Shown: piece after piece, positions 32,255 to 63,521 of the stretch
Numbering within the stretch: the first letter of the stretch is position 1
Layout of the letters: each line of letters begins with the position of its first letter
Assembly (NCBI RefSeq): GCF_024734405.1
Contig: NZ_CP059556.1
Span: 1,054,001-1,118,000, forward strand
Length of the DNA stretch: 64,000 nt
From: Saccharopolyspora gregorii
Lineage (GTDB): Bacteria > Actinomycetota > Actinomycetes > Mycobacteriales > Pseudonocardiaceae
Direction: 5' to 3'
Made by a program: the position numbers and the translations under genes
Notes under the pieces: model-generated
Told to the model about the DNA's origin: nothing
Database searches by the model: none
What the model saw: only the letters and a program-made list of their open reading frames with translations

Positions 32255-33415
32255 ATGACCAGCACCGCCATCACCGGCATCGGCGAACTCACCACCAACG
32301 ACGACGAGCTCGGCACCCCCGGCGACGCCGCGCTCGTCCTCGACGGCGACCGCATCGCCTGGGTCGGACCAGCCCACCGCGCACCCGCCGCCGACACCTC
32401 CGTCGACGTCGGCGGCCGCGCCGTGCTGCCCGGCTGGGTCGACAGCCACACCCACCTGCTGTTCGCCGGCGACCGCACCGCCGAGTTCACCGCCCGCACG
32501 AACGGCGAGCCCTACGCCGCGGGCGGCATCGCCGTCACCGTCGACGCCACCCGCGCCGCCACCGACGACGAACTCCGCGCCACGCTGCGCCGCCACCTCG
32601 CCGAAGCCGCGTGGAACGGCACCACCTGCGTCGAGACCAAGACCGGGTACGGGCTCACCGTCGCCGACGAACTCCGCGCCGCCCGCATCGCCGCCGCCGA
32701 AGCCGACGACGTCACGTTCCTCGGCGCGCACCTCGTGCCGCCCGGCGAAGACCCCGACCGCTACCTCGACCTCGTCCGCGGCGACATGCTCGACGCCGTC
32801 GCACCCCACGTGCGCTGGTGCGACGCGTTCTGCGAACGGGGCGCCTTCGACGCCGAGCAGACCCGGCGGGTGTTGCGCGCCGCCGCCGACCGCGGACTCG
32901 GGCTGCGCGTGCACGGCAACCAGCTCGGACCCGGACCCGGCGTGCGGCTCGCCGTCGAACTCGGCGCCGCCAGCGTCGACCACTGCACCCACCTCGAAGC
33001 CGAGGACATCGCCGCGCTCGCCGGATCGGGCACCGTCGCCACCCTGCTGCCCGCCTGCGACCTCTCCACCCGGCAGCCGCTGCCGCCCGCGCGGGAACTC
33101 CTCGACGCCGGGGCGACCGTCGCGCTCGCCTCCAACTGCAACCCCGGTTCCTCCTACACCACGTCCATGGCGTTCTGCGTCACCACGGCCGTGCTCCAGA
33201 TGCGGATGACCGTGCCCGAAGCGATCCGCGCCGCCACCCTCGGCGGGGCGCGGGCGCTGCGGCGCGACACCGGCGACGGGGCCGTCGGCGTGCTCCGGCC
33301 CGGTGCGCGCGCCGACCTGCACGTCCTCGACGCGCCCAGCGCCTCCTGGCTGGCGTACCGGCCCGGGGTGCCGCTCACGCACGCGGTGTGGCGAGCGGGG
33401 GAGCGGGTGCGGTGA
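32255..33415 (+). CDS. hutI: Imidazolonepropionase
   Basis: Amidohydrolase-superfamily enzyme of 386 residues opening the imidazolone ring to N-formimino-L-glutamate. Metal-binding histidines lie in [12 protein letters not shown], the substrate loop in [12 protein letters not shown], and further ligands in [14 protein letters not shown] and [23 protein letters not shown] is typical of HutI. It is the last gene of the hut operon. Its stop codon is already part of the first unit of a 29-bp-period repeat array, so the array begins with no spacer. Confidence 0.94.
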
Positions 33416-33581
33416 GGAAGGGAACCTTCCTGTCACGAGGGCGAGGAAGGGAACCTTTCGATCACGGGCGCGGTGAAGGGAACCTTCCGGTCACGACGGG
33501 CGGAAGGGGGACGTCGCTGCCACGGATGCGGTGCGGGGAACCTTCCTGCCATCCGTGGGATGACGGGAACTTTCCGGTCAT
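33414..33581 (+). repeat. Array of six 23-bp repeat units, 29-bp period
   Basis: Units start at 33414, 33443, 33472, 33501, 33530 and 33559, exactly 29 bp apart: 23 bases of repeat and 6 of variable spacer. The consensus is a GAGGAAGGGAACCTTCC-type palindromic half followed by a GTCAC tail. The fourth unit is degenerate. The array begins inside the hutI stop codon and ends about 20 bp before the DUF6104 stop. No protein is encoded here, since a 29-bp period breaks every frame. Confidence 0.85.
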
Positions 33582-33600
33582 CCCGGAGCAGGGGAGCTGC

Positions 33601-33777
33601 TCAGTCGTCGTCCGCGTCGTCGCGGGCGAGGAAGGTCGCGAGGCGCTCGGTCGCGTCCTCGAACGCCGGGTTCAGGTCCACGAAGACCCGCATCCGGTCC
33701 GCGAGCCACGCCAAGGTCACCTCGTCGTCGCCACGGCGCTCCTCGAGCTCCTCGATGCCCCGGTCGGTGAAGTACAC
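33601..33777 (-). CDS. DUF6104 family small protein
   Basis: A 58-residue acidic protein, VYFTDRGIEELEERRG at the start and LATFLARDDADDD at the end. It matches the conserved actinobacterial DUF6104 family as I recall it. The GTG at 33777 is chosen because GGAGGAGGAG lies about five bases upstream and the family begins at YFTDRG. Function unknown; cytosolic, with no signal or membrane segment. In streptomycetes a similar gene lies near the 2-oxoglutarate dehydrogenase gene. Here a toxin-antitoxin cassette separates it from kgd. Confidence 0.78.
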   Translation of the reverse strand: MYFTDRGIEELEERRGDDEVTLAWLADRMRVFVDLNPAFEDATERLATFLARDDADDD

Positions 33778-33826
33778 CGTCTCCTCCTCCACGTGCGAAC
33801 CGGCGGCAGCGCACCGCCGGAGCTGA

Positions 33827-33874
33827 CAGCAAGGGAACCTTACTGTCACACGTGGCAGGAAGGTTCCCTTCATC
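33827..33874. repeat. Inverted pair of 23-bp repeat units
   Basis: A plus-oriented unit (33827-33849) and a minus-oriented unit (33852-33874) meet tail to tail as GTCAC-ac-GTGGC with a 2-bp centre. Part of this pair is included in the 80-bp direct repeat that flanks the toxin-antitoxin genes. Confidence 0.75.
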
Positions 33875-33932
33875 GCACCCCTCCGGGCGCGCAAAAAGGG
33901 CCGCCGGTTCCCGGAGGAACCGACGGCCCGCG
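33853..33932. repeat. Direct repeat A flanking the toxin-antitoxin genes
   Basis: Eighty bases that recur at 34637-34718 (82 bp there) with no mismatch apart from a short A/G/C difference in the A-rich linker. It comprises one repeat unit, a GC-rich linker and a complete terminator hairpin. The two copies bracket the toxin and antitoxin genes. Confidence 0.85.
33898..33929 (-). terminator. Terminator after the antitoxin gene
   Basis: GGGCCGCCGGTTCC and GGAACCGACGGCCC pair with one mismatch around a CGGA loop, 14 bp past the antitoxin stop on the minus strand. The identical hairpin follows kgd. Confidence 0.8.
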
Positions 33933-33942
33933 GCAGGCCCGG

Positions 33943-34296
33943 TCAGCCCGCTTGGGTGGCGGGCCGGACGATCCGTTCGGCTTGTTCGAGCAGGCTCCGC
34001 AGCTTCCGCGCTTCGAACGCGCTGATCCCGGTGACCTGAGCGGTCGTGCGGTTCGCCGCAGCGACGCAGACGGTCCGGATCCACTCGGACTGGCTGAGGC
34101 CCGCGGTCGCCGCGGCTTCGCGGATCGCCGCTGCCTCCTCGCGGCTCATCCGGAACGAGGTCGACACGTTGAGCGGCTGGGCCACCTCGACCGCGATCTC
34201 TTCGGCGTCGTCGAAGTCCGCTTCGAGCTCCTCGCGGTGCAGCTGGTGCCATTCGGCCTCGTCGGAAGCTGCACCATCGTGCGGGTCCCGGGTCAT
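33943..34296 (-). CDS. Ribbon-helix-helix antitoxin (BrnA-like)
   Basis: A 117-residue predicted antitoxin. The middle part, NVSTSFRMSREEAAAIREAAATAGLSQSEWIR cut here by description, has the pattern of a CopG/MetJ ribbon-helix-helix DNA-binding domain around residues 45-80. The acidic N-terminus (EAEWHQLHREELEADFDDAEE) could be the toxin-neutralising part, though in many BrnA proteins that segment lies elsewhere. The ATG at 34296 overlaps the toxin stop and has a GGGAGG site; a GTG-type longer start is not needed. Toxin-first order is typical of brnTA. Confidence 0.72.
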   Translation of the reverse strand: MTRDPHDGAASDEAEWHQLHREELEADFDDAEEIAVEVAQPLNVSTSFRMSREEAAAIREAAATAGLSQSEWIRTVCVAAANRTTAQVTGISAFEARKLRSLLEQAERIVRPATQAG

Positions 34297-34538
34297 GTCG
34301 CCTCCCAAGCCGTGATCGGACGAACGGTCGAGGACGGTTCGTCGTAGGCGATGGCCACCAAGATCGGGCGGCCGCCGCGCGTGCGGCCGAGCAGGAGGTG
34401 CGACGCGGCCCTGGCTCGCTTGTTCCGAGCCACCTTCGTCGGGTTGGAGATCGCCTGGTCGATCTCGTCCGCCGAGACGCCGTGGCGGGTGGCGTGCTCC
34501 AGATTCGCGTCATCCCACTCGATCGACTCGATCCGCAT
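34293..34538 (-). CDS. BrnT-like toxin
   Basis: An 81-residue basic protein resembling the BrnT/RelE-fold ribonuclease toxins: IEWDDANLEHATRHGVSADEIDQAI at the N-terminus, a central HLLLGRTRGGRPILVAIAY, and the terminal VRPITAWEAT resembling the usual R-I-I-S-A-R-x-A ending. BrnT toxins cleave RNA. Its gene overlaps the antitoxin gene by four bases and is preceded by AT-rich palindromes likely bound by the antitoxin. The pair is flanked by long direct repeats, a sign of insertion. The identification is by pattern, so a related DUF4258-type toxin is possible. Confidence 0.7.
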   Translation of the reverse strand: MRIESIEWDDANLEHATRHGVSADEIDQAISNPTKVARNKRARAASHLLLGRTRGGRPILVAIAYDEPSSTVRPITAWEAT

Positions 34539-34548
34539 GGCCGATCAA

Positions 34549-34580
34549 TGTATTACACAGGTTAGTTCGCGTATTACGCG
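34549..34580. promoter_or_regulatory. Toxin-antitoxin operator/promoter
   Basis: Two TATTAC boxes lie 21 bp apart (34551 and 34572), two helical turns. The second is the centre of the perfect palindrome CGCGTATTACGCG (34568-34580), the first of the imperfect TGTATTACACA (34549-34559). On the minus strand the boxes read GTAATA and could overlap the -10 region. The site is notably AT-rich and begins 10 bp upstream of the toxin start, fitting autoregulation by the ribbon-helix-helix protein. Confidence 0.55.
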
Positions 34581-34610
34581 GCGGCAAGGTGGGGAACGTC
34601 GCCCTCGGCC

Positions 34611-34658
34611 GATGAAGGGAACCTTCCGGTCACCACTGGCAGGAAGGTTCCCTTCATC
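34611..34658. repeat. Inverted pair of 23-bp repeat units downstream of kgd
   Basis: Plus unit 34611-34633 and minus unit 34636-34658 face each other tail to tail with a 2-bp centre, as in the pair at 33827-33874. The minus unit is the beginning of direct repeat B. Confidence 0.8.
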
Positions 34659-34718
34659 GCACCCCTCCGGGCGCGCAAAGAACGGGCCGCCGGTTCCCGG
34701 AGGAACCGACGGCCCGCG
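34637..34718. repeat. Direct repeat B flanking the toxin-antitoxin genes
   Basis: The second copy of the 80-bp sequence at 33853-33932. It differs only in the linker between GCGCGCAAA and GGGCCGCC. It contains the terminator used by kgd. Confidence 0.85.
34684..34715 (-). terminator. Terminator after kgd
   Basis: Fourteen-base arms GGGCCGCCGGTTCC and GGAACCGACGGCCC with one mismatch and a CGGA loop, 18 bp past the kgd stop. Identical to the hairpin at 33898-33929. Confidence 0.82.
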
Positions 34719-34732
34719 ATCGTGCGCAAGGA

Positions 34733-37700
34733 TCAGGCGAAGGCGTTCTGCACCACTTCGGCCTGCTCCACGTCGTGCACGGCCTTGAGGCCGGTGGCCG
34801 GGGCGGCCATCGGGCGCCGCGACACGCGCTTGAGCCCGCGCATCCGCTCGGGGAACAGCTCCGGCAGCGCGAGGCCGAGGAACGGCCACGGGCCCTGGTT
34901 CGCCGGTTCTTCCTGCGCCCACCGGATATCGGTGGCGTTCGGGTAGCGCTCCAGCAGCGCGCCGAGCTTGCGGTGCGGCAGCGGGTACAGCTGCTCGAGC
35001 CGCACCAGGGCCGTGTCGGTGTGGCCCTGCTTCTCCTTCTCGGCGGCGAGGTCGTAGTAGAGCTTGCCGGAGCAGAACACGATCCGGCGCACCGCCGACG
35101 GGTCCGGCTGCGCCGGGTCGTCGATCACCGAGGTGAACTTGCCCTCGGTGAAGTCGGCGACGGAGCTCGTCGCGGCCTTCATCCGCAGCATCGACTTCGG
35201 CGTGAACACCACCAGCGGACGGTGGATGCCGTCCAGCGAGTGCCTGCGCAGCAGGTGGAAGTAGTTCGCCGGCGTCGACGGCAGCGCCACCGTCATCGAC
35301 CCCTCGGCGCACAGCTGCAGCCAGCGCTCGATGCGGGCCGAGCTGTGGTCGGGGCCCTGGCCCTCGTGGCCGTGCGGCAGCAGCAGCACCACGTCGGAGC
35401 GCTGCCCCCACTTCGCCTCACCGGACGAGATGAACTCGTCGATGATCGACTGGGCGCCGTTGAAGAAGTCGCCGAACTGCGCCTCCCACAGCACCAGCGC
35501 GTCCGGGTTGGCCACGGAGTAGCCGTACTCGAAGCCCATCGCCGCGAACTCGGACAGCGCCGAGTCGTAGACGAGGAACTTCGCCTGGTCCTCGCCGAGG
35601 TTCTGCAGCGGGGTGTACTCGGTGCCGTTCTTCCGGTCGATGAGCACCGAGTGCCGCTGGCCGAAGGTGCCGCGCCGCGAGTCCTGGCCGGTGAGCCGCA
35701 CCGAGCGGCCCTCCATCGCCAGCGACCCGAACGCGAGCAGCTCGCCGAAGCCCCAGTCGATCTCGCCTTCGCGGGCCATCTTCGCGCGCCGCTCCAGCAC
35801 CGGCTTGACCCGCGAGTGCGGGGTGAAGCCCTCGGGCAGGTCGACGTGCGCGTCGGCGATCCGCTCCAGCGTGGCCGGGGAGATCGCGGTGACCAGCTTC
35901 GTCGGCACCTGCTGCTCGGACTCCACCGAGGGGCTGGGCTCCGGCGGGTGCTTCTCCAGCTCGCGGACCTCGTTGAACACGTGCTCCAGCTGGGAGGCGT
36001 AGTCCTTGAGCGCCTTCTCGGCCTCTTCGACGGTGATGTCGCCGCGGCCGATGAGGGACTCGGTGTAGGTCTTGCGCACGCTGCGCATCTTGTCGATGGC
36101 GTCGTACATCGCCGGCTGCGTCATCGACGGGTCGTCGCCCTCGTTGTGACCGCGACGGCGGTAGCAGACCATGTCGATCACGACGTCCTTGCCGAACGCC
36201 TGGCGGTACTCCACCGCCAGCTTCGCCACCCAGACGCAGGCCTCGGGGTCGTCGCCGTTGACGTGGAAGACCGGCGAACCGATCATCTTCGCCACGTCCG
36301 TCGAGTACTTGCTCGACCGCGAGTGCTCCGGGGCGGTGGTGTAGCCGACCTGGTTGTTCACGATCACGTGCACAGTGCCGCCGGTGCGGTAGCCGCGCAG
36401 CAGCGACAGGTTCAGCGTCTCGGCGACCACGCCCTGACCGGCGAACGCGGCGTCGCCGTGCAGCAGCACCGGCAGCACCGTGAAGCCTTCCTGGCCCTTG
36501 TCCAGGATGTCCTGCTTGGCGCGGACGATGCCCTCCAGCACCGGGTCCACGGCCTCCAGGTGCGAGGGGTTCGAGGTCAGCGACACCTTCGTCTCGCCGT
36601 CGCCGAACATGCGGAAGTACTTGCCCTCCGCGCCCAGGTGGTACTTGACGTCACCGGAACCGTGCGCCTGGCCCGGGTCCAGGTTGCCCTCGAACTCGCG
36701 GAAGATCTGCGAGATCGGCTTGCCGACGATGTTCGCCAGCACGTTCAACCGGCCGCGGTGCGGCATGCCGATGACGACCTCGTCGAGGTCCGCGGCGGCC
36801 GAGGAGTCCAGCACCGCGTCCAGCAGCGGCACCACGGTCTCGGCGCCCTCCAGCGAGAAGCGCTTCTGCCCGACGTACTTGGTCTGCAGGAACGTCTCGA
36901 ACGCCTCGGCGGCGTTGAGCTTCGAGAGGATGTACTTCTGCTCGGACTGCTCCGGCTTCTCGTGCGGCTTTTCGACCCGATTCTGCAGCCACTCGCGCTC
37001 GTCCGGCTCCAGGATGTGCATGTACTCGACGCCGACGGTGCGGCAGTACGAGTCGCGCAGCACGCCCAGCACGTCGCGCAGCGACATCCGCTCCTTGCCG
37101 GCGAACCCGCCGACCGCGAACTCCCGGTCCAGGTCCCACAGCGTCAGGCTGTGCGAGAGGACGTCGAGGTCCTCGTGCCTGCGCTGCCGGTAGTTCAGCG
37201 GGTCGATGTCGGCCATCAGGTGGCCGCGGGTGCGGTAGGCGTCGATCAGCTCCAGCACCCGGGCGGTCTTGTCGACCGCGCCCTCCGGGATGTCCTGGGT
37301 CCAGCGGATCGGCTCGTACGGGATGCGCAGCGACGAGAAGATGTCGTCGAAGAACTTGTCCTCGCCCAGCAGCAGCTGGTGCACCTTGCGCAGGAAGTCG
37401 CCGGACTCGGCGCCCTGGATGACCCGGTGGTCGTAGGTCGAGGTCAGCGTCACGATCTTGCTGATGCCCATGTCGACCAGGGACTTTTCCGACGCGCCCT
37501 GGAACTCGGCCGGGTAGTCCATCGCCCCGACGCCGATGATCGCCGACTGGCCCTTGGTCAGCCGCGGCACCGAGTGGTTCGTGCCCGACGGGCCCGGGTT
37601 CGTCAGCGAGAACGTGGTGCCCGCGAAGTCGTCCGCGGTCAGCCCACCGGTGCGGGCCTTGCGGATGATGTCCTCGTAGGCCTGCCAGAACTGCTGGAAG

Positions 37701-38455: not shown

Positions 38456-38818
38456 GGCTGGCGTTCGCCTCGATCCATCTGCTCGTGATGTACACACACT
38501 CAAGTACCAGGCTAGCGGTCCGTTTAGTGCGGTTGGCACACAGTGCGGGCCTGGTGGAGAAGAGTTCGGTCACAGGATCGATCAGGAAAGTCCCTCACCA
38601 GGCAAACATGACCCGTTCGGGCGTGGTCCTCGATCACTGGCATCCGTACTATGCGCCGACTCGCCGCCGGTGCTCCGGTCGGCCTCCGCCCCGTCTGTCG
38701 CCTGCGGACGGCACAACGTTTCGGTCACGACCGCTGTTCCCGCCGTTCGGGACGACCCGGTCCGACCGGCGAGAACAGGTGACGCGGCGTGCCCGGACTC
38801 ACCCGCGCGGTGAGCACG
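38456..38818. other. Intergenic region, 363 bp, upstream of kgd
   Basis: Separates the kgd start from the 3' end of the ABC exporter gene. It is less GC-rich near kgd and should contain its promoter, but I could not pick hexamers with confidence. No repeat unit, hairpin terminator or small gene was recognised. Confidence 0.5.
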
Positions 38819-42625: not shown

Positions 42626-42697
42626 CAGGCCAGGTTAGGTGCCGGGGACGACGGGGATCCGGGGGCGCGGCGGCGGCGCACCGGCGCTCACCTGAGC

Positions 42698-42865
42698 GAG
42701 GAGGGGAACCTTCCGGTCATCGACGTGAGGAAGGGAACCTTCCTGTCACGGGTGCGAGGAAGGGAACCTTTCGATCACAGGTGGGATGAGGGGAACCTTC
42801 CTGTCACGGGTGCGAGGAAGGGAACCTTTCGATCACAGGCGCGATGAAGGGAACCTTCCTGCCAC
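42698..42865 (+). repeat. Array of six 23-bp repeat units, 29-bp period
   Basis: Units start at 42698, 42727, 42756, 42785, 42814 and 42843, all exactly 29 bp apart, all in plus orientation. Two alternate sub-types are visible: tails CTGTCAC and CGATCAC. The array fills the gap between the exporter start (42625) and the ABC-2 permease stop (42934). Two strongly degenerated units may continue to about 42920. Confidence 0.88.
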
Positions 42866-42933
42866 CGCCCCGCACGAAAGAGGGGACCTCCCCACCCGAG
42901 CAGGAAGATCCCCTCCGATCGAACAGCGCCACC

Positions 42934-46888: not shown

Positions 46889-46958
46889 CCGGTCCGCCTC
46901 CCGACACCACGACCGAACACCGACCCCAGCATCATCCGCCCGGCGTCCGCACCCCGCC

Positions 46959-47010
46959 GCGAGGAAGGGAACCTTCCGGTCACCGGTGACCGGAAGGTTC
47001 CCTTCCTCGC
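46959..47010. repeat. Perfect 52-bp palindrome made of two repeat units
   Basis: Two 23-bp units (46961-46983 plus, 46986-47008 minus) meet tail to tail around CG. Every base from 46959 to 47010 is complementary to its partner, so 26-bp arms could form an uninterrupted cruciform. It lies 71 bp upstream of the ald start and 22 bp upstream of the -35 box of the glycine-riboswitch promoter. Confidence 0.95.
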
Positions 47011-47031
47011 TGTGATCCGGGCGGCTGGGCG

Positions 47032-47059: not shown

Positions 47060-47095
47060 TGCCGGGCACGACCACAACCGCACAGCGCCGCAGAA

Positions 47096-47284
47096 CCCGA
47101 GCGGGAGAGACCCTGCGCAACGCAGGGCGCCGAAGGAGCAAACCCTCCCCGCAAAACTCTCAGGCACCCATGACCGCTCGGGCGAGGCCACTCTGGAAAG
47201 CGCGCGCCCCGGCGCCGCACCCACGGTGCAAGCCGCGAACCACCGCGGCGAAGCTCTCAGGTCCCGAAACAGAGGGGGAGGCCC
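47096..47284 (+). promoter_or_regulatory. Tandem glycine riboswitch
   Basis: Two glycine aptamers in series. Aptamer 1 (47096-47182) is closed by CCCGAGCGG/CCGCTCGGG and has GGGAGAG, CGCCGAAGGAGCAA and ACTCTCAGGCA. Aptamer 2 (about 47187-47284) has CTCTGGAAAGC, GGCGAAGCTCTCAGG and ACAGAGGGGGAGG. The 3-4 base linker is typical. A GGGCAC/GTGCCC hairpin (47294-47307) lies between aptamer 2 and the gcvH ribosome site and may be the expression platform. Glycine should turn on the downstream gcvH-sdaA genes. Confidence 0.93.
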
Positions 47285-49080: not shown

Positions 49081-49125
49081 GAGCGCTTCGTCTCGCCCGG
49101 CGCTCGAAACCGCGCGGGGCGGTGA

Positions 49126-49234
49126 GAGCAGGGGAACCTTCCTGTCACGTCGCAGGCGTGGACCACCGGCGTGAGTCGATGCGAGCAGGGGAACCTTCCT
49201 GTCACCGGTGCGATGAGGGGAACCTTCCTGTCAC
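49126..49234 (+). repeat. Repeat array downstream of sdaA (three clear units)
   Basis: Plus-oriented 23-bp units at 49126, 49183 and 49212. The last two are 29 bp apart, the first two 57, roughly two periods with the middle position decayed. An isolated inverted half-unit, GGAGGTTCCCTTGCAG, lies at 49326-49341 in the ohrR promoter region. Confidence 0.8.
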
Positions 49235-49362
49235 GCTCGGCCTCGTCCGGAGCCGTGGTGGCCGGTGTGGTGGAGTGCGGCGGTGGTGTTCCGGCGGGCC
49301 GCGCGGTGGTGGCTCCGGATGACGGGGAGGTTCCCTTGCAGAATTTAGGATGCGCACAACTC

Positions 49363-51629: not shown

Positions 51630-51853
51630 GTCGGTGCGCCTCCAAGAGGTAGTGGGGAAGACTCCGCACAGATCTATCGGCAGCGGCCCCGCGATTTCCG
51701 CACCTGCGACCGAAGATCACCAGATCGTGGGGTTCACGGACGGGGAGGTGGTCACCCTCGGCTCATCTGGATCGAGCGCCGTGGCTGGAGTGGATCACTC
51801 CAAAGTGGAGAGGATGAGGCTCGGTGCGGAGGCGTCCGTTCGTTCGAACTTCG

Positions 51854-52051
51854 GTGACCGGAAGGTTCCCTTGCCCGCACCGGTGACCGGAAGGTTCCCT
51901 TGCCCGCACCGGTGACCGGAAGGTTCCCTTCATCGCACTCGTGACCGGAAGGTTCCCCTGCTCGCCCCGGCCCACGCCGGTCGCGTCCGCACCTGCGATG
52001 TGACCGGAAGGTTCCCTTCATCGCACCCGTGACAGGAAGGTTCCCCTGCTC
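51854..52051 (-). repeat. Array of six 23-bp repeat units downstream of the ligase gene
   Basis: Minus-oriented units start (plus coordinates) at 51854, 51883, 51912, 51941, 52000 and 52029. Steps are 29 bp except one of 59, leaving room for a lost unit. The array ends 12 bp before the ligase stop codon. The rest of the 434-bp gap (51630-51853) shows no gene. Confidence 0.87.
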
Positions 52052-52063
52052 GCGGCCGGCCCG

Positions 52064-53752: not shown

Positions 53753-54022
53753 GTGGCTCCTCCACTCACGAGGCGGCCACGTGCGTGACGCGAGGTTCGT
53801 GGTGACCTCGCCGATGAAACCGCACCGGAGGCCCGTTTGGCCAGTAGGCGGACGGGTGCCGTCGGGAGCGGGGTGCGGGGGCCCGGCTGCACCGCGTGTT
53901 CGAGGCTCGTGCCTGGCGCGCCCCCGGGTTCGGCCGTCCGAGGAGCCGGCTCGCTCGAACGGGCCGCTGTCCGGATCGCTACCGGTGACCGCCGAGCGCT
54001 CGGCGCACCGGCGGCGGGCCGG
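53753..54022. other. Intergenic sequence upstream of the ligase gene
   Basis: About 270 bp without a recognised gene, lying between the ligase start and a repeat array. Likely to contain the ligase promoter; no hexamers or operators stood out. Confidence 0.4.
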
Positions 54023-54132
54023 GTGACAGGAAGGTTCCCTTCACCGCACCCGTGATCGGAAGGTTCCCTTCATCGCACCGGTGATCGGAAGGTTCCCTTG
54101 CTCGCGCCGGTGGCAGGAAGGTTCCCTTCCTC
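54023..54132 (-). repeat. Array of four 23-bp repeat units downstream of the MerR gene
   Basis: Minus-oriented units start (plus coordinates) at 54023, 54052, 54081 and 54110, exactly 29 bp apart. Tails alternate GTGAC, GTGAT, GTGAT, GTGGC. The last unit ends 3 bp before the stop of the MerR-family gene. Confidence 0.88.
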
Positions 54133-54135
54133 CGA

Positions 54136-54855
54136 TCAGACGTGGTCGCGGATGACGTCGTTGATCGCGTTCTGGAACCCGTTGACGAGCACGTGGATGG
54201 TCAGCGGCCGCAGCTGCTGGGTGGCGACGTGCACCCGTTCCCGCTCTTCTTCGGGCCGTCCGCGTTCGAGGTAGGGCCGCAGCACGTTCGCGGCGAACAG
54301 TTCGCGCAGCTCGACGGCGATCTGCGAGGTGTGCTGCTCGACGATGTCCTTGGCTTCGAGGAGCATGCCCTGCGGCAGGTCGAGGTCGAGGATCTGCAGC
54401 CCGACGCCGAGCATGGCGGAGTTGGACAGCCGCACCCGGCTGAGGTCGTCGTCGAGGGCTTGGAGGATGCCGAGCGAGATGAGCTTGCCGACGAGGTCGT
54501 CGTCGAGCTGCCGCCCGGCGCGCTGGCTGAGCTCGTGCCGGGTGAGGTCTTCGCTCTGGTCGCTGGTCCACGGCGCGAGCAGTGCGCGGTGCAGCGCGAG
54601 GTCTTCGGCCGTGGCGTCGTCGGGGATCCGCTCCAGGTGCCGTTCGATGGCGGAGAGGGTGAACCCGAGCGCTTGCAGTTCCCGGATCAGGTCGAGCCGC
54701 GCCAGGTGGTCGCCGCCGTAGAGGCCCAGCCGCCCGCGGAGCCGGGGCGGGGGCAGCAGACCGCGGGACGCGTAGAAGCGAACGGTCCGCACGGTGACGC
54801 CGGCGCGCGCGGCCAACTCGTCGATGGTCAGCTCTTCGTCCGCGGTTCGGAGCAT
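54136..54855 (-). CDS. MerR-family transcriptional regulator
   Basis: A 239-residue regulator. The N-terminal MerR domain reads LTIDELAARAGVTVRTVRFYASRGLLPPP and LARLDLIRELQALGFTLSAIERHLERIP. The long C-terminal part (from about residue 95) is helical and has no cysteine cluster, so it does not look like a metal sensor. A longer C-terminus of this kind occurs in regulators of lipid metabolism genes. Divergent from the racemase/dehydrogenase operon with 108 bp between; an imperfect GTGACAC/GTAACAC arrangement lies there. Likely controls those genes; inferred. Confidence 0.85.
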   Translation of the reverse strand: MLRTADEELTIDELAARAGVTVRTVRFYASRGLLPPPRLRGRLGLYGGDHLARLDLIRELQALGFTLSAIERHLERIPDDATAEDLALHRALLAPWTSDQSEDLTRHELSQRAGRQLDDDLVGKLISLGILQALDDDLSRVRLSNSAMLGVGLQILDLDLPQGMLLEAKDIVEQHTSQIAVELRELFAANVLRPYLERGRPEEERERVHVATQQLRPLTIHVLVNGFQNAINDVIRDHV

Positions 54856-54963
54856 GGTCGGGGAGCTTACTCCTTGACCGCTGTGACACCAACGATGTAA
54901 CACTGATTGCGTCGCGACACGGTGTCGTGCGCGGCGTGCGGCCGCTGGCGGAGAGGTGCAGGC

Positions 54964-57248: not shown

Positions 57249-57265
57249 GTCGGAAGAGGTGCGGC

Positions 57266-58414
57266 ATGGACTGGATGGTCACCCCCGCGGCGGACCGGGC
57301 GCTGTCCGACGTGCTGCCCTCCGCGCTGGCCGCCCTCGGCACCGCCGGGTTCACCGACGTGCTCGGGATCCCGCGGTGCCGTTCGGCGGCCGTGCTGCTC
57401 GTCGACGGGCTCGGCTGGTCGCTGCTGCGCGAGCACGCCGCCGACGCGCCGGCGCTGAACTCGCTGGCCACCGGTGAGCCGCTCGTCGCCGGATTCCCCA
57501 CCACCACCGCCACCAGCATCACCTCGCTCGGCACCGGGCGGCGCGCCGGTGAGCACGGGATCGTCGGCTACACCTTCGCCGAACCCTCCGGCGGTCTGCT
57601 GCACCCGCTGGCGTGGGTGAGCCGCGGCGCCGACGGGCGGCGGCGCGGGCTGCTCGACGAGTGGCCGCCGGAAATCGCCCAGCCCACCCCGACCGCGCTG
57701 GAACGCGCCGCCGAAGCCGGGGTGGCCGTCCGCTCCGTCGCGCCCGCCGAGTTCGGCGGGACCGGGCTGACCAGGGCCGCGCTGCGCGGCGGCGAGTTCC
57801 GCGGCGTGCACGCGCTCGGCGACCTCGGTGCGGAACTGCTCGCCGCGCTCGCCGAGCCCGGGCCCGCGCTGTGCTACGGCTACCACGGCCACCTCGACCT
57901 CGTCGGCCACGTGCACGGGCCCGGTTCGTTGCCGTGGCGGATCCAGCTCGCCCAGGTCGACCGGCTCGTCGACTCGCTGCTGCAACGGCTGCCCGCCGAA
58001 TCGGTGCTGCTCGTCGTCGCCGACCACGGCATGGTCGCCGTCGACCCGGCCGACGCCGTCGACGCCGACTCCGAACCCGCGCTGCGCGCCGGGCTGCGGC
58101 TCATCGGCGGCGAACCCCGCGCCCGCCACCTCTACCCGCTGCCGGGGGCGCGCGACGACGTGCTGCACGCCTGGCGGGACGTGCTGGGGGAGCGCGGCGC
58201 CGTCGTGACCCGCGAGCAGGCCGTCGACGACGGGTGGTTCGGCCCCGTCGTCACCGACGAGGTGCGCTCGCGCATCGGCGAGGCCATCGCCGTGCTGCGC
58301 GACGGCGCGGTCGTGCGGTCCGCGGCCGAACCCGGCGAATCCGCGTTGCGCGGCCACCACGGCTCGCTCACCGCGGCCGAACAGCACGTGCCGCTGCTGA
58401 TCGCGCGGGGATGA
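57266..58414 (+). CDS. Alkaline phosphatase superfamily protein (nucleotide pyrophosphatase-like)
   Basis: A 382-residue metallo-phosphodiesterase/phosphatase-fold protein without a signal peptide. Zinc/metal ligands and nucleophile are seen as LLVDGLGWSLL, the Thr nucleophile in FPTTTATSITSL, HGHLDLVGHVHGPG, VVADHGMVAVDP and GHHGSLT. Homologues in actinobacteria are annotated as nucleotide pyrophosphatases or phosphodiesterases; the substrate is unknown. It is 17 bp behind the acyl-CoA dehydrogenase gene with a GGAAGAGGT site, so probably cotranscribed, though functionally unrelated. Confidence 0.82.
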   Translation: MDWMVTPAADRALSDVLPSALAALGTAGFTDVLGIPRCRSAAVLLVDGLGWSLLREHAADAPALNSLATGEPLVAGFPTTTATSITSLGTGRRAGEHGIVGYTFAEPSGGLLHPLAWVSRGADGRRRGLLDEWPPEIAQPTPTALERAAEAGVAVRSVAPAEFGGTGLTRAALRGGEFRGVHALGDLGAELLAALAEPGPALCYGYHGHLDLVGHVHGPGSLPWRIQLAQVDRLVDSLLQRLPAESVLLVVADHGMVAVDPADAVDADSEPALRAGLRLIGGEPRARHLYPLPGARDDVLHAWRDVLGERGAVVTREQAVDDGWFGPVVTDEVRSRIGEAIAVLRDGAVVRSAAEPGESALRGHHGSLTAAEQHVPLLIARG

Positions 58415-58523
58415 GCGCGGCGCGCCGGTGACCGGTCGCGTCCGGGCGGCCGCCGGGAACGGTTCCGGGCTCGTGGTCGCCGGTGACGGTCCGTCGGTGC
58501 AGCGCCGATCGCGTTCGTCCGTC

Positions 58524-58583
58524 CTGCGTCGGCCGGTTCTGCGTCGGCCGGTTCTGGGGTCGCGGGTTCTGCGTTCGTCGGTT
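58524..58583. repeat. Four tandem 15-bp repeats downstream of the YbaB gene
   Basis: CTGCGTCGGCCGGTT occurs twice in succession (58524-58553), followed by two divergent 15-bp copies (CTGGGGTCGCGGGTT and CTGCGTTCGTCGGTT) up to the stop codon of the YbaB/EbfC gene. It could be a minisatellite, since the unit is a multiple of three. Confidence 0.7.
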
Positions 58584-59083
58584 CAGCGGAGGAAGGAGTC
58601 GCGGGAGAAGTCCTCGTCACCGGGGTCGTCGTCGCGGCGGGGCCGGTTCGGGCGGGACCGCGGCGGCTGGGCGGGCCGGTCGGCCGCGGGCGGTGCCGGT
58701 CTCGGCGCGGGTTCCGCCGCCGCGTCGACGTCCGCGGGCGGCTGCGCCCCGTGCGCCTGGTAGGCCTCGCGGAACTGCTCGGCCCGATCGCCCAGCACCG
58801 GTTCCACGGTGGCGTTCATCGTCTCCGCGGCCCGCTGGGTGGCCTGCCGGATGGTCTGCACGATCGTCTGCTGCAGCTCGGTGTGCGAGCAGCGCATCGC
58901 CTCCGGGCTCAGCCGCAGGTCGAGCACCGCGCCGGACGGGGCGACGGTCACGGTGACCGCACCGTCCTGGCTGCGCGCCTCGCCGCGGATCTCGCTCATC
59001 TTGTCCTTGAGCTGCGCCGCGGCCGCCGCCTGCTCCTCGAAACGGGACAGCATCTCCCGGACGCGCTGCTGGGCGCTGGACAT
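58583..59083 (-). CDS. YbaB/EbfC family DNA-binding protein
   Basis: A 166-residue protein with the YbaB/EbfC nucleoid-associated domain in the first 100 residues: MSSAQQRVREMLSRFEEQ, GEARSQDGAVTVTVAPSGAVLDLRLSPEA, then a long helix. A Pro/Ala/Arg/Asp-rich disordered tail (PAPRPAPPAADRPAQPPRS and on) makes it longer than the 100-residue basic form. Such extended versions in actinobacteria are often found beside secretion genes, but none is here. It is on the minus strand between unrelated plus-strand genes. Confidence 0.82.
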   Translation of the reverse strand: MSSAQQRVREMLSRFEEQAAAAAQLKDKMSEIRGEARSQDGAVTVTVAPSGAVLDLRLSPEAMRCSHTELQQTIVQTIRQATQRAAETMNATVEPVLGDRAEQFREAYQAHGAQPPADVDAAAEPAPRPAPPAADRPAQPPRSRPNRPRRDDDPGDEDFSRDSFLR

Positions 59084-59238
59084 GAAAAGTCTCCCCGACT
59101 TCCGAACGTTTTCAGAGAGCGTAGCCAGTGCTGGTGGCGCGCCGCGGACGTTCCGCGGTTTCCGCTCCGCGCCGAACCTCGGAGGTGGTGACGAGGAGCA
59201 CAATGGGGGTGCGGCGACGCCTCGTCGGCCTCTTGTAT

Positions 59239-59292
59239 CTATGCGGCGATCCGCCTAGAGTTCCCGACGGCCGGAATGTTGTTTCCGCATAG
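59239..59292. promoter_or_regulatory. Inverted repeat in the glc promoter region
   Basis: CTATGCGG at 59239 and CCGCATAG at 59285 are perfect complements 38 bp apart, ending 30 bp before glcD. They could be two half-sites for one regulator, but no regulator gene is adjacent. Confidence 0.35.
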
Positions 59293-59322
59293 CGAAATCC
59301 TCAGTGGTGAGGAGGCGTGCCC

Positions 59323-60807
59323 ATGTCCACCACCAGCGCCACGACCGCCCCCGACCTCGACCGGCTCGTGCGGCACCTGCGCACCGCGCTGCCCGAACGC
59401 GCGGTGATCACCGATCCGCAACGGCTGCGCACCTACGAATGCGACGGGCTCGCCAGCCACCGCGTCGTGCCCGCCGTCGTCGTCCTCCCGGAAACCACCG
59501 AACAGGTCCAGCACGTCGTCACCGCCTGCGCCGAGCAGGACGTGCCGTTCGTCGCGCGCGGCTCCGGCACCGGCCTGTCCGGCGGGGCGCTCCCGCACTC
59601 CGACGGCGTCCTCATCGTCACCGCCAAGATGCGCCGCATCCTCGACGTCGACATCGCCAACGAACGCGCCGTCGTCGAACCCGGCGTCATCAACCTCGAC
59701 GTCACCCGCGCCGCCGCCCCGCACGGCTACTACTTCGCGCCCGACCCCTCCAGCCAGCAGGTCTGCTCCGTCGGCGGCAACGTCGCCGAGAACTCCGGCG
59801 GCGCGCACTGCCTCAAGTACGGGTTCACCACCCACCACGTGCTCGGGCTGCAGGTCGTGCTGCCGAACGGAGAACTCGTCGAACTCGGCGGCACCGCCCG
59901 CGAAGCACCCGGCTACGACCTGCTCGGCGCGTTCATCGGCAGCGAAGGGACCCTCGGCGTCGTCACCCGGATCACCGTGCGGCTGCTGCGCGCACCCGAA
60001 GCCGTGCAGACCCTGCTCGCCGGCTTCCGCACCACCGACGACGCGGGCGCCGCCGTCTCCGCCATCATCAGCGCCGGAGTCACCCCCGCCGCCATCGAGA
60101 TGATGGACGCGCTCGCCATCGAAGCCGCCGAACAAGCCGTCCACTGCGGATATCCCGACGGAGCGGGTGCCGTCCTCGTCGTCGAACTCGACGGGCCCAC
60201 CGCCGAAGTCGAGCACACCTTCGCCGAGGTGAAGCGGCACTGCGACCGGCACGGGGCCTTCGAGATCCGCGTCGCCGCCGACGACCAGGAACGCGCCACC
60301 ATCTGGAAAGGCCGCAAATCCGCGTTCGCCGCCGTCGGCCGCATCAGCCCCGACTACATCGTCCAGGACGGGGTGATCCCGCGGACCGCGCTGCCCGAAG
60401 TGCTCGGCCGCATCGCCCGCCTCTCCGCCGACTCCGGCGTCCGCGTCGCCAACGTCTTCCACGCCGGAGACGGGAACCTGCACCCGCTCGTGCTGTTCGA
60501 CGACGCCGAGGACGGCGCCGCCGAACGCGCCGAAGCCGTCTCCGGCGCCATCCTCGACCTCTGCATCGAACACGGCGGCTCCATCACCGGGGAGCACGGC
60601 GTCGGCGCCGACAAGGTCAAGTACATGGGGCGCATGTTCACCGACGACGACCTCGACACCATGCAACTCCTGCGGTGCGCGTTCGACCCCGCCGGGATCT
60701 GCAACCCCGGCAAGGTGTTCCCCACGCCGCGGCTGTGCGGCGAAGTCCCCGGACCCCGCCGCGGCGTGCACCCGCTGACCGAAGCAGGATTGGCGGACCA
60801 GTTCTGA
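59323..60807 (+). CDS. glcD: Glycolate oxidase, FAD-binding subunit GlcD
   Basis: FAD-linked 2-hydroxyacid dehydrogenase subunit of 494 residues, oxidising glycolate (or D-lactate). Signatures are RGSGTGLSGGALP in the FAD PP-loop, SVGGNVAENSGGAHCLKYG, GYDLLGAFIGSEGTLGVVT and the C-terminal NVFHAGDGNLHPLVLFD with HGGSITGEHGVGADKVKYM. The ATG at 59323 lies eight bases after GAGGAGG; a GTG at 59317 is too close. Overlaps glcE by one base. Confidence 0.92.
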   Translation: MSTTSATTAPDLDRLVRHLRTALPERAVITDPQRLRTYECDGLASHRVVPAVVVLPETTEQVQHVVTACAEQDVPFVARGSGTGLSGGALPHSDGVLIVTAKMRRILDVDIANERAVVEPGVINLDVTRAAAPHGYYFAPDPSSQQVCSVGGNVAENSGGAHCLKYGFTTHHVLGLQVVLPNGELVELGGTAREAPGYDLLGAFIGSEGTLGVVTRITVRLLRAPEAVQTLLAGFRTTDDAGAAVSAIISAGVTPAAIEMMDALAIEAAEQAVHCGYPDGAGAVLVVELDGPTAEVEHTFAEVKRHCDRHGAFEIRVAADDQERATIWKGRKSAFAAVGRISPDYIVQDGVIPRTALPEVLGRIARLSADSGVRVANVFHAGDGNLHPLVLFDDAEDGAAERAEAVSGAILDLCIEHGGSITGEHGVGADKVKYMGRMFTDDDLDTMQLLRCAFDPAGICNPGKVFPTPRLCGEVPGPRRGVHPLTEAGLADQF

Positions 60808-62045
60808 TGACCACCACCCGCGCCGCCCTCCACGACCGGCTCGGCGACCGCCTCCGCGACGCCACCGAACACGACGAGATCGCCGGCATCCGGCCCCGCT
60901 GGGTCGTCACCGCCGCCGACACCGCCGACGTCGCCGACGCGCTGCGCGCCGCCGCCGAACACGACCTCACCGTCGTGCCCCGCGGCTCCGGCAGCAGACT
61001 CGACTGGGGACCGGCGCCCACCTCCGCCGACCTGCTGCTCGACCTCGCGCCCTGCACAGGCATCCTCGAACACGCCGCGGGCGACCTCGTCATCAGCGCC
61101 CGCGCCGGAACCCCGCTGCGCGCGCTGCACGACACCGCCGCCGCAGCAGGTCAACGGCTGCCCATCGATCCGCCGCAGCCCACCGCCACCGTCGGCGGCG
61201 TCGTCGCCACCGGCACCTCCGGACCCGCCCGGCACTACTTCGGCGGAATCCGCGACCTGCTCATCGGCATCACCGTCGTCCTCGCCGACGGGACCACCAC
61301 CACCTCCGGCGGCAACGTCGTCAAGAACGTCGCCGGATACGACCTCGGCAAGCTCTACACCGGATCCTTCGGCACCCTCGGCGTCATCACCGAAGCCGTG
61401 TTCCGGCTGCACCCCCTCGCCGCCGAACACCGCTGGATCAGCAGCACCACCCACGACCCCGGCGACGCCGCAGGCATCGTCGACGCCCACCGGCACAGCC
61501 AGGCCATGCCCACCGCCATCGAACTCGACCGGCCCGAACCCGGCGGACCCATCACCATCACCGCGCAGCTCGAAGGCCGCCCCGACGCCACCCACGCCCG
61601 CGCCGACGCGCTCGCCCGCACCGTCGGCGGCGAAGTCCACGAGCACCCGCCCGGCTGGTGGGGCGCGCACCCCTTCCCCGCCGACGGCACCGGCCTGCGC
61701 ATCGGCACCGAACCGGCCGCGCTGGCCGACCTGCTCCGCGCCGCCGACCGAGCCGCCACCCGCACCGCACTGCCGCTCGCGCTGCGCGGCGCCGCCGGAC
61801 TCGGCGTCCTGCACGCCGGACTCCCCGGCACCGCCGACCCCGCCGCCACCACCGAACTCGTCACCGCGCTGCGCGCACTGCCCGGCTACACCGCGCTCGA
61901 ACGCGGCACCCCCGCCGTCCGCGCCGCCCTCGACCCGTGGGGGCCGCGACCCGCCGCGCTCACCGCGCTCGACCGGCAGCTCAAGGACCGCTTCGACCCC
62001 GGACACCGACTCGCCCCCGGCCGCCACGCGGGAGGAATCCGATGA
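60807..62045 (+). CDS. glcE: Glycolate oxidase, FAD-binding subunit GlcE
   Basis: A 412-residue second FAD-binding subunit. It shares with GlcD the PP-loop region PRGSGSRLDWG, PTATVGGVVATGTSGP, and SGGNVVKNVAGYDLGKLYTGSFGTLGVITEAVF. The C-terminal half is less conserved, as expected for GlcE. The start codon shares a base with the glcD stop; its own stop overlaps glcF (ATGA), so the three subunits are translationally coupled. Confidence 0.9.
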   Translation: MTTTRAALHDRLGDRLRDATEHDEIAGIRPRWVVTAADTADVADALRAAAEHDLTVVPRGSGSRLDWGPAPTSADLLLDLAPCTGILEHAAGDLVISARAGTPLRALHDTAAAAGQRLPIDPPQPTATVGGVVATGTSGPARHYFGGIRDLLIGITVVLADGTTTTSGGNVVKNVAGYDLGKLYTGSFGTLGVITEAVFRLHPLAAEHRWISSTTHDPGDAAGIVDAHRHSQAMPTAIELDRPEPGGPITITAQLEGRPDATHARADALARTVGGEVHEHPPGWWGAHPFPADGTGLRIGTEPAALADLLRAADRAATRTALPLALRGAAGLGVLHAGLPGTADPAATTELVTALRALPGYTALERGTPAVRAALDPWGPRPAALTALDRQLKDRFDPGHRLAPGRHAGGIR

Positions 62046-63373
62046 CCGACACCGAACCCGACGACGTGCTCCGCGGCGGAGCGTTCGACGCGCTGCACCC
62101 GCCGCAACGCGAACTCGTCGACGACTGCGTCCACTGCGGGTTCTGCCTGCCCAGCTGCCCCACCTACGACCTGTGGGGCGAAGAGATGGACTCGCCGCGC
62201 GGCCGCATCTACCTCATGAAGGAAGGCCTCGAAGGCGAACCCATGACCGACACCATGGTCGGCCACATGGACGCCTGCCTCGGCTGCATGGCCTGCGTCA
62301 GCGCCTGCCCCTCCGGAGTGCAGTACGGCACCCTCATCAACGAGACCCGCGCCCAGATCGAACGCAACCACACCCGCGGGCGCTGGGAGAAGCTGCTGCG
62401 CACCGCGATCTTCACCCTCTTCCCGCACCCGCGCAGGCTCCGCGCGCTCCGCGGACCCCTCGCCCTCTACCAACGGCTCCGCATCGGAGCACTGCTGCGC
62501 CGCACCGGGATCACCGACGCGCTGCCGCCTCACCTGCGCACCATGGAATCTCTCGCACCGCCCATCACCCGGGCGCCCCGGCTCGGCCGCCGCGTGCCCG
62601 CCCGCGGACCGCGCCGCGCCACCGTCGGCATGATCACCGGCTGCGTGCAGAGCGCCTTCTTCCCCGACGTCAACGCCGCCACCGCCCGCGTCCTCGCCGC
62701 CGAAGGGTGCGACGTCGTCATCCCACCCGCGCAAGGGTGCTGCGGCGCGCTCAGCGAACACTCCGGCCGCGAAGCCGAAGCCACCGCCTTCGCCCGCGCC
62801 CTCCTCGACACCTTCGAGCAGACCCGCGTCGACCACGTCGTCATCAACTCCGCGGGCTGCGGCTCCACCCTCAAGGACTACCCGCGGCTGCTGCGCGACG
62901 ACCCGCACTACGCCGCCAAGGCCGAACGGTTCGCCGCCCAGGTCCGCGACATCACCGAACTGCTCACCGAACTCGGACCCGCCGCCACCCGGCACCCGCT
63001 GCCCGCCGCCGTCGCGTACCACGACGCCTGCCACCTCAGCCACGGCCAAGGCATCCGCCGCCAACCCCGCGACCTGCTGCGCGACATCCCCGGCATCGAA
63101 CTCCGCGAAATCGATCGCGGCGAACTGTGCTGCGGCTCCGCCGGGATCTACAACCTGCTCCAACCCGACGCCGCCCGCGAACTCGGCGACCGCAAGGCCG
63201 GCCACGTCCGCGACACCGGCGCGCAACTGCTCGTCACCGCCAACCCCGGGTGCTCCATGCAGATCCGCGCCGCCCTCGAACGGCGCGGGGAAGCCATGCC
63301 GATGGCGCACACCGTGCAGGTGCTCGACGCGGCCATCCGCGGGGTGGGGGTGGACGGGTTGCTGCGGGGTTGA
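62042..63373 (+). CDS. glcF: Glycolate oxidase, iron-sulfur subunit GlcF
   Basis: A 443-residue subunit with two [4Fe-4S] ferredoxin motifs (CVHCGFCLPSCPTY and CLGCMACVSACPSG) and two CCG domains (QGCCGALSEHSG, ELCCGSAGIYN) that pass electrons to the membrane. Motifs are complete. Last gene of glcDEF; 280 bp with a repeat array separate it from the permease gene. Confidence 0.93.
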   Translation: MTDTEPDDVLRGGAFDALHPPQRELVDDCVHCGFCLPSCPTYDLWGEEMDSPRGRIYLMKEGLEGEPMTDTMVGHMDACLGCMACVSACPSGVQYGTLINETRAQIERNHTRGRWEKLLRTAIFTLFPHPRRLRALRGPLALYQRLRIGALLRRTGITDALPPHLRTMESLAPPITRAPRLGRRVPARGPRRATVGMITGCVQSAFFPDVNAATARVLAAEGCDVVIPPAQGCCGALSEHSGREAEATAFARALLDTFEQTRVDHVVINSAGCGSTLKDYPRLLRDDPHYAAKAERFAAQVRDITELLTELGPAATRHPLPAAVAYHDACHLSHGQGIRRQPRDLLRDIPGIELREIDRGELCCGSAGIYNLLQPDAARELGDRKAGHVRDTGAQLLVTANPGCSMQIRAALERRGEAMPMAHTVQVLDAAIRGVGVDGLLRG

Positions 63374-63381
63374 GCGCGGGG

Positions 63382-63521
63382 GTGGCAGGAAGGTTCCCTT
63401 CATCGCACCGGTGACCGGAAGGTTCCCTTGCTCGTGACCCGACGGCCGGAACCTCGGCGTCGGCGCCGCGTGACAGGAAGGTTCCCTCCACCGCACCGGT
63501 GACTGGAAGGTTCCCTTGCTC
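63382..63521 (-). repeat. Repeat array downstream of glcF (four clear units)
   Basis: Minus-oriented units start (plus coordinates) at 63382, 63411, 63470 and 63499. The 59-bp step contains a degraded unit near 63441. It begins 9 bp after the glcF stop and lies ahead of the permease promoter region. Confidence 0.85.

Follow-up and report, generated by a model that had tools for sequence, protein, structure and literature searches.

A 29-bp palindrome family confined to one chromosomal domain in Saccharopolyspora gregorii and its relatives: a possible REPIN-like system with a non-RAYT partner

The window, a stretch of 64,000 nucleotides from the chromosome of Saccharopolyspora gregorii (genome G000, 6,344,421 bp; the other G-numbers label the genomes compared with it, and the g-numbers their groups), carries copies of a short palindromic unit, arranged as follows.

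33409..33582, plus strand: direct array of five units, starting at the stop codon of hutI (gene named by eye)
33822..33879, no strand: tail-to-tail inverted pair, its two cores 29 bp apart
34606..34663, no strand: tail-to-tail inverted pair
42693..42866, plus strand: direct array of six units with an exact 29-bp period
46956..47013, no strand: inverted pair in the gap that separates ald (named by eye) from a glycine riboswitch
49121..49235, plus strand: direct array of three units, with steps of 57 and 29 bp
51853..52056, minus strand: direct array of six units
54022..54137, minus strand: direct array of four units
63381..63526, minus strand: direct array of four units, with steps of 29, 59 and 29 bp

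The six arrays described in an earlier note on this DNA (at 33414, 42698, 49126, 51854, 54023 and 63382) were all found again at those positions, and its count of about 35 units agrees with the 34 detected in the window by a 35-bp weight matrix; the same matrix gave 103 units in the 204 kb around the window and no match in one first-order Markov sequence used as a control. The three tail-to-tail pairs in the window all have the 29-bp distance. The dense domain of G000 has the leftmost array as its left boundary, and G003 and G004 carry units in that gap too; the gap with the pair at 46956..47013 has such a pair also in G003, G004 and G018. As for known RNA families, the window contains two glycine riboswitch aptamers at gathering score and nothing else.

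Regarding structure, each unit forms an imperfect palindrome of 29 bp with consensus ggtGCGAgGAAGGGAACCTTCCtGTCACc, and unit ends join at CACCGGTG. The 6-bp spacer, first described as variable, is not free: it belongs to the palindrome, so that the 29-bp period is the unit length, and the selection on phase that had been proposed is not required, the period being loose in several relatives. Units occur in two layouts, direct arrays or tail-to-tail inverted pairs, with 29 bp from centre to centre in either. The strict period itself was borne out in G000: for neighbours closer than 150 bp, the same-strand steps include 33 of exactly 29 bp (the next commonest are 59 bp, three times, and 58 and 51 bp, twice each), and the opposite-strand steps comprise 22 of exactly 29 bp, corresponding to 22 exact inverted pairs, and 2 at other distances. 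Both layouts keep the strict spacing in g1 (G000, G003 and G004) and in g14. It is not general in g26: G224 holds 29 bp in its inverted pairs (23) and not between units on the same strand, spacing in G130, G160 and G283 is loose (31-56 bp for the most part), and four same-strand steps of 29 bp occur in G247. The one inverted pair that was folded, at 46956..47013, has a predicted 24-bp DNA stem (-32.3 kcal/mol, z -8.3), while three single units gave z values of -0.2, -2.9 and -1.8.

The family is confined to one chromosomal domain. All 81 exact cores, AAGGGAACCTT, of the G000 genome lie at 1,087,418-1,209,215 (122 kb, 1.9% of the genome), and confinement to the orthologous domain is near-complete in seven further genomes, spread over three genera of which one is by inference Saccharopolyspora (74/75 exact cores inside the domain in G130, 37/37 in G224, 87/88 in G160 and 81/82 in G283); none of the 103 units around the window falls within a called gene. 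Each genome has 67-128 units over 120-290 kb, and the domain sits 0.87-1.44 Mb from dnaA in eight genomes of 4.8-9.6 Mb; among the three genera it is found on either chromosome arm, and within any genome it occupies one side of the origin only. Unit sites are stable within the genus, hence the units have moved little recently. By pattern, the units are wholly absent from G001 and G002, and they are near absent from G261, with synteny kept; three Actinopolyspora loci examined are without them. No replacement repeat emerged from k-mer counts in G002 or G001, and TTCAATGGAA, considered as a replacement family in G261, was discarded because just four copies occur in 20 kb, all of them in a single gap.

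Other identities for the domain were rejected: it is not a mobile island or plasmid, as it consists of syntenic housekeeping DNA (kgd, rho, argS, hom-thr and the atp operon; named by eye), nor an origin array, because it lies at about 1.1 Mb whereas dnaA is at 880. The long inverted repeats of the S. erythraea macro-regions, as described in PMC3610266, differ from the 29-bp unit. Another palindrome family met during sampling is genome-wide and not regional.

A single gene is conspicuous. Gene 85 (G000:C1:1136414-1137394, minus strand, 326 aa), 18 kb past the window end, is the only one of 180 region genes present in all seven unit-bearing regions compared (G000 and six others) and not in unit-free G002, and G001 has no gene 85 between genes 82 and 87; it was chosen post hoc from the 180, and its link with the units is correlative. 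Units lie within 700 bp on both sides of it in 7/7 genomes, a property unique among the 40 genes with seven orthologues; at a 250-bp limit, gene 81 outdoes it (6/7 vs 5/7). In an eighth genome, G283, units flank the gene on one side and the nearest on the opposite side is more than 1.9 kb away, which brings bracketing to 7/8.

The position of gene 85 within the domain is roughly central. The G283 homologue, added after centrality had been computed elsewhere, lies 383 bp from the mid-range of 219 kb; the offset of the gene from mid-range is 25 kb in both G003 and G018 and 20 kb in G160, its distance to the unit median is 35 kb in G018 and 62 kb in G160, where about 42 kb is inserted beside it, and by mean offset genes 81, 79, 77 and 76 lie closer to the centre. 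The farthest unit is 72-113 kb away in seven genomes and 163 kb in G160. Gap occupancy in G000 is flat out to 50 kb from gene 85 (28/56 gaps) and then 4/24 at 50-70 kb, 1/20 at 70-85 kb and 0/12 at 85-105 kb; a steady fall of site density with distance was not seen in G160 or G283. Finally, a Rhodococcus homologue, 35% identical to gene 85 (PADLOC AbiEi, E 5e-11), has inverted pairs of an unrelated palindrome on both sides.

The gene 85 protein has an N-terminal AbiEi-type DNA-binding region (PADLOC AbiEi, E 6.7e-10; no match to Pfam AbiEi). Its C-terminal domain weakly resembles a nuclease: Pfam MTES_1575 matched below the cut-off in G000 (E 0.014) and G003 (E 2.3e-4), two of the five members scanned, and was not found in the G224, G018 and Rhodococcus copies. 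The motif PD...ExD...H is present in five gene 85 copies and in the Rhodococcus protein, the distant G261 protein having R for E; at sequence level, a restriction-endonuclease-like (PD-(D/E)XK) assignment is weakly suggested. No convincing solved-structure match was obtained, and relatives were found on one plasmid record and none in phages or viral contigs. The gene is intact in G000, G003, G004, G224 and G018, with 22, 21, 21, 20 and 12 exact inverted-pair sites (28-30 bp), respectively, and truncated in G130, G160 and G283, with 3, 3 and 7; the truncation may be a single event in one genus, where the units survive.

The reading preferred here, held tentatively and with somewhat less than even confidence, is a REPIN-like system that spreads locally, with gene 85 as a new kind of partner. 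The replicating unit would be two 29-bp palindromes in inverted orientation, 58 bp in all, able to form a long hairpin; we infer that the AbiEi-type region of the likely partner, gene 85, reads the palindromes, and that its restriction-endonuclease-like domain may nick or cut them and so drive copying. Copies would remain near gene 85, presumably since the protein, the intermediate or the repair template acts locally; direct 29-bp arrays would be secondary, arising by tandem duplication of abutting units. Exact inverted pairs are scarce in the genomes without the nuclease part.

The likeness to REPIN-RAYT systems lies in short intergenic palindromes, inverted doublets with a predicted hairpin (the 22 exact pairs of G000 and the folded pair), tandem clusters and a protein gene alongside. 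However, REPINs are RAYT-linked and randomly distributed in extragenic space, according to PMC3116915, whereas these units fill one domain; and the GTAG or CGTC tag that REPs carry at one end, as described in PMC3733652, is in none of the unit consensuses of G000, G003, G004, G018 and G160. The presumed partner also differs, as a protein of AbiEi type that may carry a nuclease domain: RAYT (PF01797, Y1_Tnp) was rejected since, among 28 genomes searched, it is missing from 16/19 shown to bear units, G000 included, and it is present in unit-bearing G030, G173 and G283 as well as in G001, G002 and G261. MITEs are short, non-autonomous elements with an inverted-repeat structure, features that the units share, but no parent transposon was identified for them and their copies are locally confined. 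The REP/MITE-like option of the earlier note survives as a way of working and fails as family membership; the spacing is not random, none of the 103 units lies in a called gene, and the REP features tested do not fit. As for the antitoxin AbiEi, its binding site consists of two inverted repeats of 23 bp separated by 3 bp (PMC7319586); the resemblance lies in the related protein region and in a pair of inverted repeats, each of roughly 23 bp, with little sequence between them, while tens of dispersed sites in place of one promoter and the possible C-terminal nuclease domain set the two apart. No AbiEii (DUF1814) family was found among the five gene 85 neighbours scanned (genes 81-84 and 87).

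An array of chromosome-organising sites, an option already raised from the sequence, is unlikely but would be the next candidate: a dimeric protein, that of gene 85 or another, would fold or anchor the domain in the manner of matS/MatP or of RacA/ram, and selection would keep the copies. It would suit a domain-limited family in orthologous position in three genera on either arm, sites conserved within the genus, a 29-bp spacing that g1 and g14 keep whatever the orientation, and a conservation slightly higher in units than in flanks (65.3% vs 59.4%; 21/26 gaps), but unit-free gaps are more conserved still (69.9%), the domain is on a single side of the origin, and the units are absent from G001 and G002 by pattern, nearly absent from G261, and lacking at the three Actinopolyspora loci, with synteny intact in the first three. 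Confinement to a single domain recalls matS, a 13-bp site with 23 copies in the Ter region (PMC3116907), whose motif given there, GTGACRNYGTCAC, is not in the unit consensus; unlike matS, the 67-128 units are set in arrays and pairs over 120-290 kb, and, judged by distance from dnaA (0.87-1.44 Mb), the domain does not fit a terminus location.

Passive local spread, by replication slippage, template switching and gene conversion among nearby copies, with gene 85 a bystander and no dedicated protein, appears improbable. Concerted evolution speaks for it, orthologous copies resembling each other hardly more than paralogues do, and a single base change being present in 41/103 units of G000 vs 3/95 and 2/93 in congeners; so do the tandem arrays and the match between the arms of a pair, which exceeds that of shuffled pairs in G000 (2/2000 shuffles) and G018 (0/2000), and not clearly in G003 (139/2000), G224 (123/2000) and G004 (1256/2000). 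It is harder to reconcile with the all-or-none presence of the units, the distribution and bracketing of gene 85, and the Rhodococcus parallel; moreover, the homology is short, which makes plain RecA conversion unlikely.

Operators or terminators for adjacent genes are very improbable despite the strong predicted fold of the inverted pair and although convergent gaps are the type filled most often (9/12), as stop-proximal sites (<30 bp) are no commoner than random (16/121 vs 13%), start-proximal ones (<60 bp) are avoided (8/85 vs 24%), array and gene strands are uncoupled in nine tandem gaps (array/gene -/+ 3, +/- 3, -/- 2, +/+ 1), and a regulon would not end at the domain edge as these copies do, so that the RNA-level 3' signal once suggested is disfavoured.

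A broader reading, likewise of somewhat less than even probability, is that AbiEi-nuclease fusions, each with a private family of palindrome pairs, seed copies only near their own gene and form an undescribed class, a locally acting, domain-bounded repeat system, selfish or domesticated, whose members with unrelated palindromes would be those of the Saccharopolyspora relatives and Rhodococcus, with G261 possibly a third. No report of the 29-bp element was found in the literature, including a search by the unit letters (of 36 matching papers, the 30 listed have no title on bacterial repeats), in a coverage that mostly excludes subscription journals.

In conclusion, three genera share an orthologous domain that is filled by one repeat family, which is wholly absent from some close relatives. 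Were selection for chromosome organisation its cause, it would reveal a densely marked, macrodomain-like region in actinomycetes; if the REPIN-like reading is true, it would represent a second route to such elements, based on a protein class other than RAYT, and would show directly over what distance from its own gene a DNA-acting protein, or its product, can act along a bacterial chromosome.

The repeated unit is a 29-bp imperfect palindrome with the consensus ggtGCGAgGAAGGGAACCTTCCtGTCACc and GAA at its centre; copies abut in two layouts, as direct repeats (head to tail) or as inverted ones that meet tail to tail at ACCGGT, and in G000, the S. gregorii genome, the centre-to-centre spacing is 29 bp in both. 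The six head-to-tail arrays claimed by the earlier note are present as it stated. A weight matrix found 103 units in 204 kb round the window and none in one Markov control sequence. Regarding their placement, counted on our own rough gene calls, none of the 103 lies inside a gene; start-proximal positions are shunned (8/85 at less than 60 bp, versus 24% at random), while there is no enrichment near stops (16/121 at less than 30 bp, versus 13% at random). Among gaps of at least 60 bp, units occupy 9/12 convergent, 19/42 tandem and 5/19 divergent ones, and array strand is not tied to gene strand in the nine tandem gaps whose arrays keep to one strand. Folding predicts a 24-bp stem for one inverted pair (two tail-to-tail units, 58 bp; z -8.3) and weak structures for three single units (z -0.2 to -2.9).

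Three other features of the window lie among the units:

47092-47279: two glycine riboswitch aptamers side by side, in the upstream region of a gcvH-like gene (name assigned by eye); ~80 bp separate the first of them from the inverted pair at 46956-47013
33943-34538: a toxin resembling BrnT (match below the cut-off) and a ribbon-helix-helix-like partner, with an inverted pair on either side; no counterpart turned up in seven other regions
58583-59083: a YbaB/EbfC-type DNA-binding protein within the unit domain, also in the congeners G003, G004 and G005 and not found in the other regions compared

The repeat family and its confinement to one chromosomal domain are firm: 81 of the 81 exact cores in the whole 6,344,421-bp G000 genome fall in 121.8 kb at 1.087-1.209 Mb, and twenty 20-kb samples from elsewhere gave one GGGAACCTT and no array. 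The unit with its tail occurs in four of the six genomes of the genus (48, 66, 31 and 31 exact matches) and in neither of the other two; all 66 matches of G003 lie in one region, as do all 31 of G004. In a pattern search across a family-wide sample of 297 genomes, counts of at least 13 occurred only in three genus-level groups, g1, that of S. gregorii (4/6), g14 (1/1) and g26 (19/22), and the remaining genomes had at most 3 matches each (G240 had 1); the reversed-pattern control gave up to 2, and diverged units, for example those of G247 (g26), escape the pattern. The matches are again regional, with 74/75, 37/37, 87/88 and 81/82 inside the domain in G130, G224, G160 and G283 (all g26), and 12/13 within 123 kb in G018 (g14), whose stray site consists of two opposed units amid unrelated genes.

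In contrast to these regional units, a second G000 family, made of GTGAACGGACCGTTCG .. 30 bp .. CGAACGGTCCGTTCAC pairs, is dispersed genome-wide, a nearly self-complementary 12-mer giving at least 158 forward and at least 153 reverse matches. Examples on G000:C1 are:

L164, 5220578-5229666
L151, 600990-602966
1217479-1217520

Separately, L163 8303-9440 (G000, ~5.188 Mb) holds 18 copies of GCTGATCCGGAC in 1.2 kb, all spaced by multiples of 3; this is probably a repeat-protein gene. In the G283 genome the Y1 transposase gave 19 matches, of which many are partial and two contain a stop; 22 of the 28 genomes searched have none.

As for the neighbourhood, tblastn with 180 numbered region genes recovered it almost gene for gene in G003, G004 and the unit-free G002, and with inner rearrangements in G018, G160, G224, G130 and G283; the domain is orthologous among these genomes. 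Its distance from dnaA is 0.87-1.44 Mb; g14 and g26 carry it on the side opposite to that in g1. In G000, G003 and G004 dense occupation begins past hutI (name assigned by eye), and in G160 its start falls in that interval as well; a separate occupied site lies near genes 13-18 in G160, G130, G224 and G004. G002 keeps the synteny and has no units, several aligned gaps showing clean absence.

Gap occupancy is largely shared between G000 and G003 (28 gaps have units in both genomes, 2 and 4 in just one, and 54 lack them in both); with G018 the figures are 8, 3 and 7, and 29. In 30 pairs from gaps of identical layout in G000 and G003, orthologous copies are alike at 24.4 of 29 positions, more than shuffled pairs (0/2000 shuffles) and barely above within-genome paralogues (23.0 and 24.5). 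A T-to-G change marks 41/103 units of G000, versus 3/95 and 2/93 in congeners. This change and the small gap between orthologues and paralogues indicate that the units evolve in concert or co-evolve with a protein. Conservation is 65.3% in units, 59.4% in their flanks and 69.9% in unit-free gaps. In an unrooted six-gene tree, G018, which bears units, clusters with three Actinopolyspora loci that have none, and G002, which has none, clusters with the unit-bearing G000, G003 and G004, a mixing which suggests more than one gain or loss of the whole set. G261, the sister of unit-rich G207 in an ald tree, has 78 kb of syntenic DNA free of units and 2 pattern matches genome-wide; its gap adjoining ald (L215, G261:C77:67659-67787) carries inverted AT-rich repeats, TTCAATGGAA/TTCCATTGAA, and the G160 counterpart of this gap holds family units.

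One gene follows the units across these genomes:

G000:C1:1136414-1137394, minus strand: gene 85, 326 aa, 18 kb beyond the window

Alone of the 180 region genes, it was found in each of the six further unit-bearing regions used for comparison (G003, G004, G018, G160, G130 and G224, with truncated copies in the G160 and G130 regions) but not in G002, in a count where the regions are of unequal width and edge genes are not all covered. In the unit-free congener G001, gene 82 is followed directly by gene 87, and three Actinopolyspora loci spanning genes 71-81 or 72-81 have no gene 85 match. Units lie within 700 bp on both sides of gene 85 in 7/7 genomes, which holds for no other of 40 genes with orthologues in all seven; at a 250-bp limit gene 81 does better (6 genomes versus 5). 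With G283 the tally becomes 7/8, because units there lie 106 bp from the homologue on one side and more than 1.9 kb away on the other.

In G000, 28/56 gaps within 50 kb of gene 85 are occupied and 0/12 beyond 85 kb (Mann-Whitney p 3.3e-6 for 112 gaps; p 2.4e-4 within 82 kb), the profile being a shoulder near 50 kb with no slope. The peak of sites per 10 kb is within 5 kb of gene 85 in six genomes; a steady fall of density away from it was not seen in G160 and G283. Among 91 genes, it is the most central when they are ranked on largest offset (0.27 of the span) and comes fifth on the mean offset; of the sequence compared, G283 and the right-hand part of G160 alone were added once this centrality had been seen, and the genomes are dependent because they share synteny.

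Offset of gene 85 from the mid-range and from the median of the units (kb)
G000: -11; +6
G003: +25; -13
G004: -2; +5
G018: +25; +35
G224: +12; -6
G130: -4; +7
G160: +20; +62
G283: -0.4; +12

Residues 25-179 of the gene 85 product match AbiEi profiles (E 6.7e-10), and residues 247-302 weakly match the REase model MTES_1575 (E 0.014; 2.3e-4 in the G003 copy; no match in the G224, G018 or Rhodococcus copies). P241 D242 ... E253-x-D255 ... H260 is invariant in five copies and retained in Rhodococcus. In G130, G160 and G283 the match ends near residue 200, and these genomes have 3, 3 and 7 sites with exact inverted pairs (28-30 bp), versus 12-22 in five genomes with intact gene 85; same-strand spacing is loose in these three, but also in G224, where gene 85 is intact.

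The sole homologue in the plasmid collection, from Rhodococcus ruber (35% over 297 aa), offers an independent parallel: it is flanked on both sides by inverted pairs of another palindrome, with arms of 22-26 bp and 3 nt between them. Across the 74 kb of its record there are six pairs of this kind; three of these lie no more than 0.8 kb from the homologue, and one overlaps the annotated end of a coding gene. The core, at up to 2 mismatches, occurs 16 times versus a Markov mean of 3.2. By our own arithmetic (6 sites, ~57 gaps, one homologue), chance would give a named gene two neighbouring occupied gaps ~1 time in 100. AbiEi itself is known to bind a pair of 23-bp inverted repeats with 3 bp between them (PMC7319586), a geometry that fits that of the inverted pairs here. 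G261 has a different gene of AbiEi type (26% across 245 aa when compared with gene 85) directly past hutI, lying between two identical inverted pairs, their sole copies in 78 kb; this further parallel is only suggestive, because a similar hairpin recurs in two other loci and R replaces the catalytic-looking E in the protein.

In conclusion, the unit family works like a REPIN, yet it is not classed as one, because, of the REP/REPIN features tested, it shares the hairpin-forming inverted doublet but not the RAYT, the tag or the genome-wide spread. Gene 85 is a plausible partner of the family on correlative grounds, and we infer that its protein may copy the units and act locally.
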